Positions 53,902 to 64,000 of a stretch of 64,000 bases of DNA are shown one piece after another. Position 1 is the first letter of the stretch. Every line of letters starts with the position of its first letter. The notes below the pieces were generated by a model. That model ran no database searches. It saw only the letters and a program-made list of their open reading frames with translations, and had not been told where the DNA came from. The translations under genes and the position numbers were made by a program. Source of the stretch: Smithella sp. M82 (lineage in GTDB: Bacteria > Desulfobacterota > Syntrophia > Syntrophales > Smithellaceae); assembly GCA_001683985.1 (NCBI GenBank), contig MAEO01000208.1:1-64000 (forward strand). The letters run 5' to 3'.

Positions 53902-56900
53902 ATGAAGACACTATTTGAAAATTTTACAAATCAATATTCGGTAAGCAAGACTTTACGTTTTGAATTAATTCCGCAGGGCAAAACAAGAGATTTTATTGAA
54001 CAGAAAGGTCTGCTGCAACAGGACGAAGATCGTGCGGAAAAATATAATAAAGTAAAAAAGACGATTGATGAATACCATAAAAATTTCATTGAAAAATCAC
54101 TGAACGGTTTGAAATTAGAAGGGCTTGAGCAGTATAAGACTTTATATCTAAAGCAGGAAAAAGACGATAAAGACAAGAAGTTGTTTGATAAAGAAAAAGA
54201 AAATCTTAGGAAACAGATTGCGAATGCTTTTAGAAACAATGAAAAGTTTAAAACGCTCTTTGCCAAGGAATTAATAAAGAACGATTTGATGAATTTTGCC
54301 TGTGAGGAAGACAAAAAAAACGTAAAAGAATTTGAAGCTTTTACAACTTATTTCACCGGTTTTCACCAGAATAGGGCAAACATGTATGTAGCGGATGAGA
54401 AACGAACGGCTATTGCGAGCCGGCTTATACATGAGAATCTGCCCAAGTTCATTGATAACATCAGGATATTTGAAAAGATGAAAAATGAAGCGCCCGAGCT
54501 TCTTTCCTCTTTTAATCAAACATTAAAGGATATGAAAGATGTTATCAAGGGCACAACATTGGAAGAAATATTTTCACTGGATTATTTCAATAAGACACTT
54601 ACACAATCGGGGATTGACATATATAATTCCGTAATCGGCGGCAGAACACCCGAAGAGGGAAAAACCAAAATCAAGGGTCTGAACGAATACATCAATACGG
54701 ATTACAATCAGAAGCAGACAGACAAGAAAAAAAGACAGCCCAAGTTCAAGCAACTCTACAAACAGATATTGAGCGACAGGCAGAGCCTGTCATTTATTGC
54801 GGGGGCATTCAAAAATGATACTGAAATTCTGGAAGCAATAGAAAAATTCTATGTAAATGAATTGCTGCATTTATCCAGTGAAGGCAAATCAATCAATGTA
54901 TTGGATGCAACCAAAAATGCTGTAAGCAATCTTGAATCTTTCGACCTGACTAAGATTTATTTCAGAAGCGGCGCTTCATTGACCGATGTTTCCAAAAAGG
55001 TATTTGGAGACTGGAGCATTATTAACAGGGCTTTAGATAATTACTACGCAACAACCTATCCCATCAAGCCAAGAGAGAAATCAGAGAAATACGAAGAGCG
55101 GAAAGAGAAATGGCTCAAGCAGGACTTTGACATTAACCTGATACAGACAGCAATCAATCAGTATGAAAACGAAACAGTAAAAGAAAAAAACAGTGGGAAG
55201 GTCATCGCTGATTACTTTGCGAAGTTCTGCGATGACAAAGAGACTGATTTAATTCAGAAGGTCAATGAAGGCTATATAGCTGTCAAGGATTTGCTGAACA
55301 CCCCTTATCCTGAAAATGAGAAGCTCGGGAGCAATAAGGATCAGGTAAAACAGATAAAGGCATTTATGGACAGCATAATGGACATTATGCATTTTGTAAG
55401 ACCGCTGAGCCTGAAGGATACCGATAAAGAGAAAGACGAAACATTCTATAGTCTGTTTACACCTCTATATGACCGTTTGACCCAAACCATCGCACTCTAC
55501 AATAAGGTGCGTAACTACCTGACACAGAAACCATACAGCACGGAAAAGATAAAACTGAACTTTGAAAACTCCACATTGCTGGGTGGATGGGATTTAAATA
55601 AAGAAACAGACAATACAGCCATTATACTGAGGAAAGATAATCTTTATTATCTGGGCATTATGGACAAGAGCCATAACAGGATATTCAGAAACGTACCTAA
55701 AGCGGATAAAAAGGATTCCTGCTACGAGAAAATGGTTTACAAGCTTCTGGCTGGAGCAAATAAAATGCTGCCGAAGGTATTCTTTTCGCAGTCACGGAGA
55801 CAGGAATTTAGTCCGTCGGCGAAACTGCTGGAAAACTACAAGAATGAGACGCACAAAAAAGGTGATAATTTCAACCTGAATCATTGCCATGAATTAATTG
55901 ATTTTTTCAAAGACTCAATCAACAAACACGAGGACTGGAAAAACTTTGATTTCAGGTTTTCAGCCACGTCCGCCTATGCTGATTTGAGCGGATTCTACCA
56001 CGAGGTGGAACATCAGGGCTATAAGATAAGTTTCCAGAGCGCAGCCGATTCCTTCATTGACGATTTGGTCAATGAGGGGAAGCTCTATCTCTTCCAAATA
56101 TACAACAAGGATTTCTCGCCTTTTAGTAAAGGCAAGCCCAACCTGCATACGCTTTACTGGAAGATGCTTTTCGCAGAGGAAAATCTGAAAGACGTTGTTT
56201 ACAAACTGAACGGCGCAGCCGAGATATTTTATCGCAAATTGTCAATTGCCGCAAAAAACAGAACCGTACATAAAGCAAAAGAGATTCTGCAAAATAAAAA
56301 TCCTGATAATCCAAAAGCTACGAGCAAATTTGACTATGATATAATCAAGGATAAACGATACACGCTTGATAAATTCCAGTTTCATGTGCCGATTACCATG
56401 AATTTCAAGGCTGAAGGCATATTCAATATGAACCAGAGGGTCAACCAGTTCCTCAAGGCCAACCCCGATATTAATATCATCGGAATAGACAGGGGAGAAA
56501 GGCATCTGCTTTACTACACCCTGATAAATCAGAAAGGTAAGATTCTCAAACAGGACACCTTGAATGTCATTGCCAATGAAAAGCAGAAAGTTGACTATCA
56601 CAACCTGCTGGACAAGAAAGAGGGTGATAGAGCTACGGCAAGGCAGGAATGGGGCGTAATTGAGACCATTAAAGAACTGAAGGAAGGTTATCTGTCGCAG
56701 GTCATCCACAAACTGACCGATTTGATGATTGAAAACAACGCCATCATTGTGATGGAAGATTTGAACTTCGGTTTCAAGCGAGGAAGGCAGAAGGTGGAGA
56801 AGCAGGTTTACCAGAAGTTTGAGAAAATGCTGATTGATAAACTCAATTACCTTGTCGATAAGAATAAAAAAGCAAATGAACTGGGCGGTCTGCTCAACGC

Positions 56901-57654
56901 CTTCCAGTTAGCGAACAAGTTTGAAAGTTTCCAGAAAATGGGGAAACAGAACGGATTTATTTTTTACGTGCCTGCGTGGAACACAAGCAAGACTGACCCT
57001 GCCACAGGTTTCATTGATTTCCTGAAACCCAGATATGAGAACCTGAAGCAGGCAAAGGACTTCTTTGAGAAGTTTGATTCCATCCATTTCAACAGCAAGG
57101 CAGATTATTTTGAATTTGCTTTTGATTTTAAAAACTTCACCGAAAAGGCAGACGGTGGAAGAACGAAATGGACAGTCTGCGCCACCAATGAGGACCGGTA
57201 TGCCTGGAACAGGGCGTTAAACAACAACAGGGGCGGTCAGGAAAAATACGATATCACAGCAGAACTGAAATCCCTGTTTGACGGAAAGGTGGACTATCAA
57301 AGCGGCAAGGATTTGAAACAGCAGATAGCAAGTCAGGAATCTGCCGATTTCTTCAGGACATTAATGAAATATTTAAGTGTCACTCTTTCATTGCGGCACA
57401 ACAACGGAGAAAAAGGTGAGGCAGAGCAGGATTATATTCTTTCGCCTGTTGCAGATAGTATGGGAAAATTCTTTGATTCAAGGAAAGCAGGTGACGATAT
57501 GCCCAAGAATGCCGACGCCAACGGCGCTTATCATATCGCGCTTAAAGGTTTATGGTGTCTGGAACAGATCAGCAAAACGGACGACTTGAAAAAAGTAAAG
57601 TTAGCCATTAGCAATAAAGAATGGCTTGAATTTGCGCAAACACTAAAAGGATAA
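53902..57654 (+). CDS. cas12a: Cas12a (Cpf1), type V-A effector
   Basis: A 1250-residue RNA-guided DNA endonuclease, very similar to the Smithella Cas12a in length and in long blocks from the N-terminus (NFTNQYSVSKTLRFELIPQG) to the end. The RuvC triad is intact: Asp863 in IIGIDRGERHLLYY, Glu952 in IIVMEDLNFGFK and Asp1205 in NADANGAYHIALKGL. The Nuc-domain Arg is probably Arg1165 in LSLRHNNGE. The protein would process its own pre-crRNA through the AATTTCTACTATTGTAGAT handle and cut T-rich-PAM DNA; both are family knowledge. It heads the cas operon; the next gene starts six bases after its stop. Its base composition is closer to the chromosome than that of the A-rich gene after it. Confidence 0.97.
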   Translation: MKTLFENFTNQYSVSKTLRFELIPQGKTRDFIEQKGLLQQDEDRAEKYNKVKKTIDEYHKNFIEKSLNGLKLEGLEQYKTLYLKQEKDDKDKKLFDKEKENLRKQIANAFRNNEKFKTLFAKELIKNDLMNFACEEDKKNVKEFEAFTTYFTGFHQNRANMYVADEKRTAIASRLIHENLPKFIDNIRIFEKMKNEAPELLSSFNQTLKDMKDVIKGTTLEEIFSLDYFNKTLTQSGIDIYNSVIGGRTPEEGKTKIKGLNEYINTDYNQKQTDKKKRQPKFKQLYKQILSDRQSLSFIAGAFKNDTEILEAIEKFYVNELLHLSSEGKSINVLDATKNAVSNLESFDLTKIYFRSGASLTDVSKKVFGDWSIINRALDNYYATTYPIKPREKSEKYEERKEKWLKQDFDINLIQTAINQYENETVKEKNSGKVIADYFAKFCDDKETDLIQKVNEGYIAVKDLLNTPYPENEKLGSNKDQVKQIKAFMDSIMDIMHFVRPLSLKDTDKEKDETFYSLFTPLYDRLTQTIALYNKVRNYLTQKPYSTEKIKLNFENSTLLGGWDLNKETDNTAIILRKDNLYYLGIMDKSHNRIFRNVPKADKKDSCYEKMVYKLLAGANKMLPKVFFSQSRRQEFSPSAKLLENYKNETHKKGDNFNLNHCHELIDFFKDSINKHEDWKNFDFRFSATSAYADLSGFYHEVEHQGYKISFQSAADSFIDDLVNEGKLYLFQIYNKDFSPFSKGKPNLHTLYWKMLFAEENLKDVVYKLNGAAEIFYRKLSIAAKNRTVHKAKEILQNKNPDNPKATSKFDYDIIKDKRYTLDKFQFHVPITMNFKAEGIFNMNQRVNQFLKANPDINIIGIDRGERHLLYYTLINQKGKILKQDTLNVIANEKQKVDYHNLLDKKEGDRATARQEWGVIETIKELKEGYLSQVIHKLTDLMIENNAIIVMEDLNFGFKRGRQKVEKQVYQKFEKMLIDKLNYLVDKNKKANELGGLLNAFQLANKFESFQKMGKQNGFIFYVPAWNTSKTDPATGFIDFLKPRYENLKQAKDFFEKFDSIHFNSKADYFEFAFDFKNFTEKADGGRTKWTVCATNEDRYAWNRALNNNRGGQEKYDITAELKSLFDGKVDYQSGKDLKQQIASQESADFFRTLMKYLSVTLSLRHNNGEKGEAEQDYILSPVADSMGKFFDSRKAGDDMPKNADANGAYHIALKGLWCLEQISKTDDLKKVKLAISNKEWLEFAQTLKG

Positions 57655-57660
57655 ATTATT

Positions 57661-60600
57661 ATGGAAACAATATTATACCAACGAACAAGATCAATACGGT
57701 TTAAATTAGAACCTATTGAAGCAGAAGAAATAGAAAAAGAAATTACTGTAATCAAAACCCAAGACAATGACGGCTTGGTGCAAGACTGCATATTCTTGGT
57801 TAATAAAGGCAATGAACTTGCAAATAAGCTAAGTAAACTTATTTGTCGTGATTACAACTGTGATGAACAAAACAATATCTCATTAAAACTTAGAAAAGAT
57901 GTGGATGTAAAGTATGTTTGGCTGAGACTTTATACAAAAAATGAATATTATGATTGGAGTGAACCCAATAACAAAACAAAAATATATTCATTAGCTGAAA
58001 TACCTTATTTATCAGAAAAATTTGTGCATTGGTTTGCATCATGGAAAAGGGATTTGGCCATATTAAATGAACAAATAACAAAAAAAACAGAGGAGCAACA
58101 CAATTTAAACAGAAGGGCAGATATAGGTTTGATTATACAATCATTATCCAAGCGCAACAGTTTTCCCTTTATAAAAGAGTTTATAGCAGCAATGAATCCT
58201 AAAAATGCATCTAAAATAGAGATAGAAGAAATCGTAAAAGAAATTGATGAGCTGCTGAATAAGTGCGAAAAAGGATTTTTACCCACCCAATCATCGGGTT
58301 ATCCGATTGCTCGTGCAAGTTTGAATTACTATACTATTTTCAAGAATCCAAAAGATTTTGACAAGGAAATATTGGAATTAAGCGGTGAAAAATTCTGTAA
58401 CGACAATCAAAATGAATGCGAAATATTGAAAGCATTTTTTACGCATTGTTTTGATGTGGATGGGTTTTGTGGAATGTTCTTGGATGTAAAAAAATTAGAA
58501 AACATCTGCTCAAAGTTAAATAGCATAAAGAATTATCAAGAAAATGATAAGCAACTTATCGCAGAAGCCATAGACAATAAAATTAAGCTACTAAACGAAG
58601 AAAAAGACAATAGCAAAAAAAAGAAAGCAAAAAAAATAATTGAACAACTTGAAAATGATAAAAAAATAGTGTGCAACTTTTGGGAACTTCAGGAAAACTT
58701 TTATGTTCAAGAAAGAAATTCTTCCAAAAATAATAACAATAAATACTGCCTCAATAAAAACTATTTTTTGATACAACAGTTATGCCAAAGCATGAAATTA
58801 TTCAAGGCAAGAGAAAAAGCAAGGTTTAACGAAGCTGTACAAAATAATAAGGACTTACCTTATGGTCAGTTGAATCAGTTTTTTCTGTTTTCAGCTATAC
58901 AAATCGGTAATGAAAATGACAAAAGAAAAACTGACAATGAGGTGTTTGATGATTTTATGAAGCACAATAAAGAGCTACATGATATTTCCGATAAAATTAG
59001 CACGCTTAAACAAAACAAAAATTTGGATGAAAAAAATAAAAAAGAATTAGATAAAATATGTACCCAGAAAGATCAAATAGCAAAAAGCAGAGGCAAATAT
59101 TTTACAGATTTAGATCATAATAAAACCTATTTTTCCAATTATGTTAAGTTCTGCAATGTATATAGAGAAGTTGCTTTAAAAGCTGGGCAGCTTAAAGCCA
59201 GAATTAAAGGCATAGAAAAGGAAAAAATAGAATCCCAGCGATTAAAATATTGGTCAGTAATTATTGAAGAGAATAAAAAGCAATATGTCGCTTTTATTCC
59301 TAAAAGTAATGACTATGCAAAAAAAGCTTATGAGAATTATTCAAAAATATATACTAATGATAATTCAATAAACACTTGTCAGTTACATTATTTTGAATCA
59401 CTTACACACAGAGCTTTAGAAAAACTTTGTTTCAGCGGTGTACAAGAAAGAACAAATACCTTTCAACCTGAAATAAAAAAGGAATTATCAATAGAGAAAT
59501 TTCCAAACTATTACGAAAAAGGATATTTCATTAAAGGTGAATATTTTTTCAATGATAAAAAAACAGGTATAAAAGATGAATCCAAACTAATCCAATTCTA
59601 TAAAGATGTACTAAATACGCAATATGCCAAATCAGCGCTTAAAGGCATCCCGTGGGAGCAATTAAAAAAAACTGTTTTAGATATTCAGTTCGAAAATTTT
59701 GATGGATTCCGCCAAGCTCTTGAAAAGTTCAGCTATGTAAAGCATATTAAAACAAAGAAAGATTTATTGAATGAATTATCAAAAGAATATGATGCTCAAA
59801 TATTTGAAATTACCTCTTTAGATTTAAAACGGCAAATCAAAGAGGACGCAAATCTTAAAGAACACACAAAAATATGGATGGAATTTTGGAGCGAAAACAA
59901 CCAAAGTAATAATTACTTGATCAGAATAAATCCGCAATTAACCATCACTTGGCGTGATAGCAAAGAAAGCAGAGAGAAAAAATATGGAGAAGAAACTTCT
60001 TTATATGATGTGAATAAAAATAACCGATTTCTAAAACCGCAATATACAATTTCCTTTACCATTACCGAAAACGCCACAACACAAACAATGAACACAGCAT
60101 TTAAAGATGCGCAAACTAAAAAAGATCAGATTCATGAGTTTAATAAACAATTATTCCAATCATATCAACCTCAATATTTTTTTGGAATAGACGTAGGAAA
60201 TATAGAATTGGCCACCCTGTGTATTATTAATCCTGAAAAAGATTTGAATGAAGAAAAGATGTCAAAAGAATCTTTACAATATTTTGATGTTTATAAGTTG
60301 AAAAAAGACCAATATAATTTCTCTAAGCCCTATCACTTCAAGACGAGGAATGAAACCAGGGAAAGAAAAGCAATAGATAATCTTTCTTATTTTGCAATCG
60401 AAGAAAATTACAAACAAACATTCAATGACGATAATTTTGAAGCGTGTTTTTCTGATTTATTTGAAAAACCGGTTAACACTTGTGCCATTGATCTTACAAC
60501 GGCAAAGGTTTTAGGTGATAAGATATTTCTCAATGGCGATATCAAAACTTATCTTTCGTTAAAAGAACGAAACGCAAGAAGGAAAATTTGTCAAATCATT

Positions 60601-61314
60601 GAAAAACATCCGAACGCTAAACTTCTGATTAATGGAAATAAAATTTTCTTTCAGGAAAGTACATCATGTGAAAGAACCTGCCTTTGCCAAGAACCTATTT
60701 ATTATTTTAATGATAAATATGATAGAGAAGTACAAACTTTGGCAGATATAAATAATAGACTTGAAGATTATATTAAAGATAAAGATAAATCCGAGCTGAT
60801 AGAAGAGAGTAAAATAAATCACCTCAGAGCCGCCATTGCTGCAAATATGACTGGCGTTATCTATCATCTTTTTGAAAAATACCAGAGCTTAATTGTTTTG
60901 GAATATTTAACGATTTCAGATATAGCAAGTCATAAAAAAGGCTTAAAAGCTTTTGAAGGAAACATAACACGTCCATTACAAATTGCATTATTTCGTAAAT
61001 TTTTAAAAAGCAGTCTTGTTCCACCTGCATTGAGTGAAATTATTCAATTGAGAGAAAAAGCAAAGGATAGAATAACAAAAATAGGGATAATAAATTTTAT
61101 TGATAAAACTGCTACTAGCGTTTCTTGTCCAAATTGTCTTGGTAAATTTGAAAATTATAATGATAATAAGAGAAAAGGATTTTGTTTATGTCCTGATTGT
61201 GGTTTTGATACAAGAACTGACCTTAAAGGATTTGAAGGCTTAGACGGCCCCGACAAAGTTGCCGCTTTCAATATTGCCAAAAGAGGATTTGAAGACTTGC
61301 AAAAGCACAAATAA
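57661..61314 (+). CDS. cas12a2: Cas12a2-like RNA-triggered effector nuclease
   Basis: A 1217-residue second effector. The N-terminus (TRSIRFKLEPIE) mirrors the Cas12a wedge start (KTLRFELIPQ). RuvC I is FFGIDVGNIELATL (Asp844), RuvC II is LIVLEYLTISDI (Glu1081) and RuvC III is GPDKVAAFNIAKRGF (Asp1198). Between II and III, where Cas12a has its Nuc domain, there is a zinc ribbon with Cys1156/1159 and Cys1177/1180. Size, triad positions and ribbon agree with Cas12a2, which binds Cas12a-type crRNA, recognises target RNA and then degrades RNA, ssDNA and dsDNA indiscriminately, causing abortive infection. It lies between cas12a and cas4, coupled to both. Codons are much A-richer than those of cas12a, suggesting separate origin. 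Activity is inferred. Confidence 0.85.
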   Translation: METILYQRTRSIRFKLEPIEAEEIEKEITVIKTQDNDGLVQDCIFLVNKGNELANKLSKLICRDYNCDEQNNISLKLRKDVDVKYVWLRLYTKNEYYDWSEPNNKTKIYSLAEIPYLSEKFVHWFASWKRDLAILNEQITKKTEEQHNLNRRADIGLIIQSLSKRNSFPFIKEFIAAMNPKNASKIEIEEIVKEIDELLNKCEKGFLPTQSSGYPIARASLNYYTIFKNPKDFDKEILELSGEKFCNDNQNECEILKAFFTHCFDVDGFCGMFLDVKKLENICSKLNSIKNYQENDKQLIAEAIDNKIKLLNEEKDNSKKKKAKKIIEQLENDKKIVCNFWELQENFYVQERNSSKNNNNKYCLNKNYFLIQQLCQSMKLFKAREKARFNEAVQNNKDLPYGQLNQFFLFSAIQIGNENDKRKTDNEVFDDFMKHNKELHDISDKISTLKQNKNLDEKNKKELDKICTQKDQIAKSRGKYFTDLDHNKTYFSNYVKFCNVYREVALKAGQLKARIKGIEKEKIESQRLKYWSVIIEENKKQYVAFIPKSNDYAKKAYENYSKIYTNDNSINTCQLHYFESLTHRALEKLCFSGVQERTNTFQPEIKKELSIEKFPNYYEKGYFIKGEYFFNDKKTGIKDESKLIQFYKDVLNTQYAKSALKGIPWEQLKKTVLDIQFENFDGFRQALEKFSYVKHIKTKKDLLNELSKEYDAQIFEITSLDLKRQIKEDANLKEHTKIWMEFWSENNQSNNYLIRINPQLTITWRDSKESREKKYGEETSLYDVNKNNRFLKPQYTISFTITENATTQTMNTAFKDAQTKKDQIHEFNKQLFQSYQPQYFFGIDVGNIELATLCIINPEKDLNEEKMSKESLQYFDVYKLKKDQYNFSKPYHFKTRNETRERKAIDNLSYFAIEENYKQTFNDDNFEACFSDLFEKPVNTCAIDLTTAKVLGDKIFLNGDIKTYLSLKERNARRKICQIIEKHPNAKLLINGNKIFFQESTSCERTCLCQEPIYYFNDKYDREVQTLADINNRLEDYIKDKDKSELIEESKINHLRAAIAANMTGVIYHLFEKYQSLIVLEYLTISDIASHKKGLKAFEGNITRPLQIALFRKFLKSSLVPPALSEIIQLREKAKDRITKIGIINFIDKTATSVSCPNCLGKFENYNDNKRKGFCLCPDCGFDTRTDLKGFEGLDGPDKVAAFNIAKRGFEDLQKHK

Positions 61315-61875
61315 ATGGAACCTTACATAACTTTATCATTCTTGAATGATTTTATATTTTGTCCGCGTTCGATTTATTTTCATCAATTATACGGCGGGCT
61401 GAACTATGAATTGTATAAACAAAAGCCGCAAATAGCAGGCGCGGCGGCGCACAAGCCTATCGCAGATAAAAGTTACAGTACCAGAAAGAATGTTTTGCAG
61501 GATGTCGAAGTATTTTCAGAAAAATACAACATCTGCGGAAAGGTTGACGTGTTTGATTGTGAGGCGGGCAAACTAACTGAAAGAAAACGTGAGATAAAAA
61601 CAATCTATGACGGCTATGTCTTTCAGGTTTACGCGCAGTGTCATGCATTAAGAGAAATGGGTTATACGGTCAATGAAATTGTTATTCACGATCTGACGCA
61701 TAATAAAAACTATCCGATCCCGCTTCCTGAGAATGATGCGCAAATGCAGTCAAAGTTTGAAAAACTGATTCAAGAAATTAATTGTTTCAAAATTGATGGT
61801 GCAGCATTTGAACCGAACAGATCGAAATGTGAGCGATGTATCTATTCGCAACTATGTGATGTTTCCCCATGTTAA
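61315..61875 (+). CDS. cas4: Cas4 exonuclease
   Basis: A 186-residue RecB-family nuclease that trims prespacers and helps select PAM and orientation with Cas1-Cas2. Four Cys for the [4Fe-4S] are present: Cys16 (FIFCPRSIYF), and Cys172, Cys175 and Cys181 at the C-terminus (CERCIYSQLC). Nuclease residues appear as His46 (AAAHK), Asp78 (GKVDVF), Glu89 and Lys91 (LTERK) and the FQVYAQ motif at 103-108. It begins at the base after the cas12a2 stop and overlaps cas1 by 7 bp. The protein looks intact although its partner Cas1 is not. Confidence 0.93.
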   Translation: MEPYITLSFLNDFIFCPRSIYFHQLYGGLNYELYKQKPQIAGAAAHKPIADKSYSTRKNVLQDVEVFSEKYNICGKVDVFDCEAGKLTERKREIKTIYDGYVFQVYAQCHALREMGYTVNEIVIHDLTHNKNYPIPLPENDAQMQSKFEKLIQEINCFKIDGAAFEPNRSKCERCIYSQLCDVSPC

Positions 61876-62178
61876 GCTACCCTGATTTTAAAGAGAAAAC
61901 GATAGTTGTCGTCTTTACAAACGAAGGCCAGCGGTTTTCATTTCAAAACGATAATTTGATTGTAACTGATGCAGATGAAAAGGTGATTCTGCAAACAACC
62001 TGCTACCGCATGCTGGCTTTATGGATTGTCGGGCATTGTGTTGTAACTTCCGGCTTGCTCGAGCGAAGCAAGAAATTTGCTTTCCCGATTTAAAAGTTAC
62101 TATCGCGCATTCATACGGCAAAAACAAATAAACGATTATCCTGTTTTTATCATCAATGAGTCTGTAAACAGGGCGTAG
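61869..62178 (+). pseudogene. cas1: cas1 with a large internal deletion
   Basis: The first ~74 residues are the normal Cas1 beginning (KTIVVVFTNEGQRFSFQNDN, then TCYRMLALWIVGHCVVTSGLLERSKKFAFPI), ending in TAA at about 62091. In another frame, from about 62083 to the TAG at 62178, the sequence reads KSYYRAFIRQKQINDYPVFI, which resembles the extreme C-terminus of type V Cas1. So about 200 or more central residues are gone and the frame is changed. The lost part contains the metal-binding Glu/His/Asp of the integrase, so this cannot insert spacers. cas2 begins four bases after the C-terminal remnant, as it would in an intact operon. Confidence 0.88.
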
Positions 62179-62182
62179 CTGT

Positions 62183-62455
62183 ATGCTTTTAGTGTCGTAT
62201 GATATCAGCAACGATAAATTGCGAACGCGCTTTGCAAAATATTTAAGCAAATATGGAAACCGCTTGCAATATTCGGTTTTTGAGATTAAAAATAGCGATA
62301 GAATTATTGAAAATATTACAACCGAAATAGAAGAATATTATAGCGGTAAGTTTGAACAGACGGACAGTGTCATAATATTCATTTTAAGTAAAACTTGTGA
62401 AATAATAAAATTCGGTTATGCTAAAAATAGCGATGAGGACTTGATAATAATGTAG
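62183..62455 (+). CDS. cas2: Cas2
   Basis: A 90-residue ferredoxin-fold protein that dimerises and bridges two Cas1 dimers in the integration complex. The start MLLVSYDISNDKLRTRFAKYLSKYGNR has the conserved Asp7 after beta-1. LQYSVFEIKNS and DSVIIFIL are the following strands. Length is normal. The ribosome-binding site is poor, so expression probably relied on coupling to cas1, whose original stop is kept four bases upstream. Without Cas1 it has no known integration role. Confidence 0.93.
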   Translation: MLLVSYDISNDKLRTRFAKYLSKYGNRLQYSVFEIKNSDRIIENITTEIEEYYSGKFEQTDSVIIFILSKTCEIIKFGYAKNSDEDLIIM

Positions 62456-62594
62456 CCGCTGGTTTATTTGCAAACCGGGGTCTTAATGTCAAAATATGGC
62501 TGATTTTATGGTATTTCAGCAACTTAGGCTTAAGCGTGAAATAGAATTGTGCTTATTAAACAACTACATAGCCAGATGCTATAAGTTGTTATCT
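62456..62594 (+). promoter_or_regulatory. CRISPR leader
   Basis: 139 bp of AT-rich sequence between cas2 and the first repeat, on the expected (upstream) side for a Cas12a array. An inverted repeat AACAACT (62559-62565) / AGTTGTT (62584-62590) ends four bases before the first repeat. No anti-repeat or tracrRNA-like pairing to the repeat is visible, in line with type V-A. Confidence 0.7.
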
Positions 62595-64000
62595 GTCTGA
62601 CAGACAGATTGAATTTCTACTATTGTAGATACTGCTTGACTCAGCAATAATTCTTGGTCTGACAGACAGATTGAATTTCTACTATTGTAGATATACAAAA
62701 CATCCCTATACGATTCAAGTCTGACAGACAGATTGAATTTCTACTATTGTAGATCGCGACAAAACTGGTTGGAAATTATTGTCTGACAGACAGATTGAAT
62801 TTCTACTATTGTAGATTTAGTTGACTTTGTAGTTCTATCAATGTCTGACAGACAGATTGAATTTCTACTATTGTAGATTAATCAATATCGTCCAGAGTGG
62901 AAATTGGTCTGACAGACAGATTGAATTTCTACTATTGTAGATTTTAACAAAACCTGTCCAGTTAATGAAGTCTGACAGACAGATTGAATTTCTACTATTG
63001 TAGATTAGAAAAATATTACATTCCATTTTTGTCTGACAGACAGATTGAATTTCTACTATTGTAGATCAATAAACTTTAATGATTATCCCAATAGTCTGAC
63101 AGACAGATTGAATTTCTACTATTGTAGATAGCGTGAATCGGTTTATATCGCGGAAGTCTGACAGACAGATTGAATTTCTACTATTGTAGATTCTTTTGCT
63201 CTGACTAATACAGATAGTGTCTGACAGACAGATTGAATTTCTACTATTGTAGATATTCGCGCAGATATTCCGGTATGCCTGTCTGACAGACAGATTGAAT
63301 TTCTACTATTGTAGATATGATACAGCCCCGACACAGGCCGCTTTGTCTGACAGACAGATTGAATTTCTACTATTGTAGATCATTGGATAAATACTGCCAT
63401 CATCAGCGTCTGACAGACAGATTGAATTTCTACTATTGTAGATCCTTGCTACATTTTCTTTATTCATTTGTCTGACAGACAGATTGAATTTCTACTATTG
63501 TAGATGATTTGTGGTCCGGAACGGCCTGCTCGTCTGACAGACAGATTGAATTTCTACTATTGTAGATTCGAGTGATGCAATGCGAGACTTTTTCTCGTCT
63601 GACAGACAGATTGAATTTCTACTATTGTAAATTTTGGTTTGGGGGGCATCCGCCCCCCTGTGTCTGACAGACAGATTGAATTTCTACTATTGTAGATCCT
63701 TGGAAGTTAAACATATCTTTGATGGTCTGACAGACAGATTGAATTTCTACTATTGTAGATATCGCCTCGCCTGCTGTAATCATTTTTGTCTGACAGACAG
63801 ATTGAATTTCTACTATTGTAGATAATGCTAATGCTTTCATTTTTTCATAGTCTGACAGACAGATTGAATTTCTACTATTGTAGATGTCCGGATTCTCAAC
63901 CAGTTGTAGGGGAGGTCTGACAGACAGATTGAATTTCTACTATTGTAGATTTTGGTTTGGGGGGGCATCCGCCCCCCTGCGTCTGACAGACAGATTGAAT
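62595..64000 (+). CRISPR. Type V-A CRISPR array, at least 22 spacers, open at the window end
   Basis: Twenty-two full 36-bp repeats and the first 20 bases of a 23rd, with 22 spacers of 25-30 bp (mostly 26-27). The repeat starts GTCTGACAGACAGATTG, where GTCTG-A-CAGAC is a perfect small palindrome, and ends AATTTCTACTATTGTAGAT, the Cas12a handle with stem TCTAC/GTAGA. Transcription is from the leader to the right, giving handle-then-spacer crRNAs. All complete repeats are identical except number 17 (63597-63632), with G to A at 63630. Spacers 17 (63633-63661) and 22 (63951-63980) are near-identical. Open frames over the array are repeat artefacts. The array continues beyond 64000. Confidence 0.99.

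Follow-up and report, generated by a model that had tools for sequence, protein, structure and literature searches.

A stable hairpin spacer present three times in a dual-effector type V-A CRISPR array of Smithella sp. M82

The CRISPR array studied here holds one strongly self-complementary spacer more than once, and one of the copies stands behind the only variant repeat of the array. How could the same hairpin have entered the array repeatedly, and what would the corresponding crRNAs be able to do? The window, that is, the whole stretch of DNA that was analysed, comprises the first 64,000 of the 75,880 bases of its contig, from an assembly of 235 contigs, and its end cuts through the array. 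The original prediction described a near-duplicate pair, spacers 17 and 22 (s17 and s22), which is real but incomplete, a third copy (s23) being located just past the window end. The relevant features are listed below; G001 is a relative with a related V-A locus.

53902..57654, forward strand: cas12a (TIGR04330)
57661..61314, forward strand: second effector, Cas12a3-like (PDB sequence matches)
61315..61875, forward strand: cas4, V-A subtype
61869..62182, forward strand: cas1 remnant (alignment to the intact cas1 of G001)
62183..62455, forward strand: cas2
62456..62594, forward strand: leader, 139 bp, between cas2 and repeat 1 (whole-length conservation with the G001 leader)
62595..64000 within the window, 62595-64081 on the contig, forward strand: type V-A CRISPR array, 24 repeats of 36 bp and 23 spacers
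63597..63632, forward strand: repeat 17, the sole variant repeat
63633..63661, forward strand: s17, hairpin spacer, 29 nt, G6, last base T
63951..63980, forward strand: s22, hairpin spacer, 30 nt, G7, last base C
63981..64000, forward strand: repeat 23, first 20 bases, to the window end
contig 64017-64045: s23, third hairpin spacer, beyond the window
contig 64046-64081: terminal repeat, after s23

On sequence grounds the locus is type V-A, placed there by its effector and array despite adaptation genes that are not intact. The cas12a product reaches 1473 bits with TIGR04330 (cut-off 300), while the second effector matches Cas12a3 chains in the PDB (21we and 9hlx, E 2.9e-111 and 2.6e-101) and no other PDB chain at E <= 0.001, which points to a Cas12a3-like product for 57661-61314. 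RNA-triggered cleavage of tRNA tails, an activity by which Cas12a3 is recognised, is putative for this protein. A Cas12a3 from Smithella sp. M82 is named in excerpts of PMC12851939. The Cas12a handle lies at the repeat ends, exact in 23 of the 24 repeats and with one mismatch in repeat 17, and a genome-wide search that tolerated as many as 3 mismatches to the 19-nt handle yields 24 matches, all within this array; Cas12a and the Cas12a3-like effector probably share these crRNAs. Among 395 genomes sampled from the phylum the V-A handle pattern occurs in two, Smithella sp. M82 included. In G001 the locus runs in the order cas12a, Cas12a3-like gene (so named by its resemblance to the second effector of the window), cas4, intact cas1 (326 aa), cas2 and a 40-repeat array.

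Solitary V-A sequences were also observed elsewhere. A virus record labelled Methanosarcina virus MetMV (MK170447.1, 14841-14876, L038) carries, in a stretch devoid of annotated genes, a 36/36 copy of the G001 V-A repeat, which may be a Racr-like RNA anti-CRISPR, a class described in PMC10651486, or may reflect a virus infecting a bacterium of this genus. A V-A-like handle, CTAATTTCTACTTTTGTAGAT, stands alone in an unannotated stretch of a Microviridae sp. genome (MG945527.1, about 2276-2299, L049), and a lone degenerate V-A handle is present in a relative of the same family (G017:C36:43489-43518, L045). Within the array, each full repeat of the scanned stretch (e.g. 63534-63563) includes a sigma-70-like consensus match (CTGACA-18-TATTGT, 9/12), and such matches might act as promoters inside the array.

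The adaptation genes bear directly on when the spacers could have been acquired. Both cas4 and cas2 were found, but cas1 is not intact, so the full cas4-cas1-cas2 set is absent at the locus. With respect to the intact cas1 of G001, 671 bp are lost between 62092 and 62093, the flanks of the deletion being identical at 193 of 224 and 320 of 363 positions, and what is left is an N-terminal reading frame in which a stop is soon met. Given this loss, adaptation at the locus is probably dead and the array frozen, although two further Cas1 matches in the genome (contigs C39 and C192) may allow help in trans. The leader aligns over its full length with the V-A leader of G001, whereas the sequences after the last repeats of the two arrays do not align. 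With this conserved leader on the cas2 side, s17 would normally be younger than s22 and s23. The proposal that s22 serves as a back-up for crRNA 17 was therefore rejected on the order of the spacers, a back-up gained after the failure of s17 not being the natural reading; moreover, the copies number three, not two.

The majority sequence of the three hairpin spacers is TTTGGTTT-G6-CATCCG-C6-TGC, from which each copy departs by a single change: the last base from C to T in s17, one extra G in s22, and the first base from T to A in s23. Base by base, then, s17 and s22 differ solely in G6 versus G7 and in the last base (T or C), exactly as originally described, and the strongly structured guide foreseen for them is borne out by predicted stems of 7 bp (s17) and 8 bp (s22), each closed by a loop of 4 nt. 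To judge this likeness, all pairs were compared among 62 spacers, namely those of this array and of the related V-A array of G001. Similarities above 0.75 are confined to the three intra-trio pairs and one identical G001 pair, which indicates that the resemblance is not due to chance; the G001 pair consists of spacers 25 and 38 (L044, G001:C120), 26 nt long, 13 units apart and each in a different spacer neighbourhood. The trio also has the most stable folds of the 62 spacers (-18.2, -17.0 and -17.0 kcal/mol, the next being -5.5) and a GC content of 66-70%, against a mean of 38% (range 16-62%) for the other 20 spacers of the array; excerpts of PMC8478413 give a range of 10 to 70% for 727 natural Cas12a spacers. 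Their lengths are 29, 30 and 29 nt, whereas the other 20 average 26.75 nt (sd 1.07), and irrespective of length each copy stops three bases beyond the C-run. In the array, s17 lies five units from s22, s22 adjoins s23, and no neighbour is repeated.

Just one base change exists across the 24 repeats, the one that the original prediction had singled out: in repeat 17, G is replaced by A at 63630 (base 34 of 36), and a C-G pair in the stem of the crRNA handle becomes C/A. Its announced effect on the stem is also recovered in silico, where the mutation destroys the handle stem: the predicted energy of the isolated 19-nt handle goes from -4.8 to -0.5 kcal/mol, and in local folds repeat 17 has a probability of 0.00 of forming the full stem, where the other 23 repeats have 0.59-0.96. 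When the entire array is folded, the repeats other than 17 range from 0.18 (repeat 18) to 0.95. Isolated crRNAs with 24-nt guides also give low handle values for crRNA 5 (0.08) and crRNA 3 (0.33), so a poor folding score is not peculiar to crRNA 17, while the loss of an actual stem pair is found in crRNA 17 alone. For full-length guides 22 and 23 the handle probability is 0.95 and 0.94, and most of guide bases 1-8 stay unpaired (0.81 and 0.71), most of the remaining guide being paired. The models thus depict crRNAs 22 and 23 as having good handles, fairly free seeds and a guide that would fold from about base 9, and both should be weak guides for Cas12a on DNA and for the Cas12a3-like effector on RNA. 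Structure within Cas12a arrays is reported, in excerpts of PMC6610086, to lower crRNA abundance and activity.

Where the hairpin came from was addressed by searching for its source at several levels. In its own assembly no further copy was found with up to 1 mismatch in a 16-mer, and self-targeting was rejected on this basis; among 296 relatives, allowing up to 3 mismatches over 25 nt, neither a protospacer nor a hairpin family emerged. The 18-nt palindrome occurs in six IMG/VR stretches, four of which represent one shared context, and none of the six has the flanks of a hairpin spacer; looser hairpin patterns returned 0, 1, 10 and 0 IMG/VR stretches with no protospacer among them. The genome_contigs collection gave five loci with a best alignment score of 24 for a spacer of 29-30 nt, and plasmid BLAST three partial matches only (E 5), neither including a protospacer. 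Phage BLAST provided weak leads: two Inbricusvirus phages have an intergenic hairpin that matches over 25 nt (92%, E 0.05), and two microviruses have hairpins of 18-19 nt. As for the rest of the array, the 20-nt cores of s12, s16 and s21 (3 of the 23 spacers) have no exact IMG/VR match, the entire array showed no recognisable protospacer in phages, and against 99 relatives it matched only V-A repeats (with at most 3 candidates scored per genome). The searches thus gave no protospacer from which to read a PAM. At the search sensitivities employed, no member of the one family of hairpin DNA suggested as origin of the spacers was found in the host assembly, among the 296 relatives or in the collections of viruses, phages, plasmids and genomes.

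The host genome has hairpins of its own. Outside the array, the pattern GGGGG-N4-10-CCCCC is found only as GGGGGAAGTTCCCCC, in three places. Dispersed hairpins of the form CCCCCTTTTCTAAAGGGGG, with variants, are abundant and often clustered about 58 bp apart (e.g. C80:15804-15938 and C107:24450-24587); a pattern of this type gives 121 matches in the genome if nested matches are included, while reversing the order of the arms gives 10. As sources of the spacers these host hairpins were rejected, GGGGGAAGTTCCCCC being the sole G/C match and the CCCCCTTTTCTAAAGGGGG family differing in sequence.

The explanation that we favour, with a probability of roughly 0.5, is that the trio represents three separate captures of one protospacer site. 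Such a site would have a T-rich seed and, after it, a G6-7/C6 hairpin, and, before the loss in cas1, would have been sampled on different occasions from slightly differing templates of an invader that kept returning, giving s23 first, then s22 and then s17. A later mutation of the repeat ahead of s17 would have crippled processing and loading of crRNA 17, and the loss of 671 bp from cas1 would have frozen the array. According to excerpts of PMC13034035, V-A Cas4 trims single strands 3'-to-5' and selects a TTTN PAM. The seed-side limit of the spacer would then be set by the PAM and the far limit by the hairpin, which, we infer, would halt trimming by Cas4. Such a stop would reconcile shared ends with separate capture, whereas under a length ruler alone, with no hairpin stop, sharing of both limits has P 0.04-0.05.

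What argues for separate capture over copying within the array is the number and placement of the changes, with the caveat that all tests between the two are post hoc and small. The three spacers show 3 changes in 88 nt and the repeats 1 in 864 nt (Fisher P 0.003, or 0.024 without the G-run indel), a comparison that G-run slippage and possible homogenisation of the repeats may weaken. The two substitutions occupy the first and the last base of the spacer, which random placement would give in 1 of 406 cases and which looks like a constant core taken with varying flanks, and s17 stands among unrelated neighbours, five units off. The alternative, which has real weight although we hold it somewhat below even odds, is a single capture of the hairpin spacer with subsequent copying inside the array, through recombination between the 36-bp repeats or replication misalignment, followed by one change per copy. 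It is the simpler account of spacer limits that are identical in all three copies, fits the tandem position of s22 and s23 and a trio in which a single step separates each member from the majority sequence, and has a parallel in the identical G001 pair; moreover, palindromes may promote slippage, and the changes in s17 and in repeat 17 are both transitions. Excerpts of PMC8047081 likewise take individual repeated spacers or blocks to suggest duplication and discuss repeat recombination and misalignment, but also state that the terminal unit rarely joins rearrangements, and copying would have to accommodate a rate of change in the spacers far above that of the repeats, substitutions confined to the spacer ends, the lack of any identical copy, and extra deletions to leave s17 where it is without copied neighbours. 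Separate capture, in turn, calls for a hotspot, since one site would have been taken three times with no other visible site of the same invader, and is weakened by the adjacency of s22 and s23, as in a tandem duplication, and by the collections searched having yielded no protospacer. The two separate acquisitions originally proposed are therefore plausible but unproven, and fall short in that there are three copies and that duplication explains their identical limits more simply.

Two further explanations carry much less weight. A difference between G6 and G7 is a common type of sequencing error, and short reads in a repetitive array, here within an assembly of 235 contigs, could produce a false copy or a false G-run length; nonetheless, a false copy should be identical, and the observed three different changes, two of them substitutions, in distinct spacer contexts make an artefact improbable. 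A role of the hairpins in stopping transcription or in other signalling within the array, in place of guiding, is in keeping with their very stable folds and their location in its distal part, yet can hardly be credited: six more spacers follow s17, the handles of repeats 22-24 still form in silico, and an intrinsic terminator was rejected because the GC stem has no T-run after it on either strand and a terminator scan found 0 sites in L012 1500-2400.

If the spacers were captured separately, the trio is a natural case of one structured site captured repeatedly, and with it one could test for a role of DNA hairpins in defining the limits of V-A spacers during adaptation. A more specific, and rather unlikely, proposition is that a stable hairpin of the invader stops Cas4 trimming, so that the same site is recaptured with its far end set by the stem and not by the Cas1-Cas2 ruler, creating a hotspot of poor guides and possibly a decoy that favours the invader. 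For studies of crRNA processing, the locus also provides a natural comparison between a hairpin guide with a broken handle and two near-identical guides with good handles, carried in one transcript that is probably read by both Cas12a and the Cas12a3-like effector. The trio is a real, well-defined curiosity of a known kind in a dual-effector V-A locus, and hairpin-anchored capture is worth testing.

Compared with known systems, the trio is a tidy case of known CRISPR behaviour and not a new mechanism. As in the repeated spacers covered by excerpts of PMC8047081, one spacer recurs in one array between perfect repeats, but here there are three copies, each with its own single change instead of being exact, and the recurring spacer is the only strongly palindromic one of the array. 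It also resembles the structured or GC-rich spacers that disturb Cas12a arrays (excerpts of PMC6610086 and PMC8478413) in being self-folding with 66-70% GC, while differing from them in that the fold does not leave the spacer, local folds predict that the adjoining handles remain intact, and it is a repeat mutation that damages crRNA 17. With the V-A loci with Cas12a3, as presented in excerpts of PMC12851939, the locus shares a Cas12a3-like second effector together with cas4, cas2 and an array, whereas here a full-length cas12a adjoins, as in G001, and cas1 is a remnant. Finally, relative to V-A acquisition in Francisella novicida, as far as excerpts of PMC13034035 describe it, cas4, cas2 and the V-A repeat are alike and cas1 is broken here.
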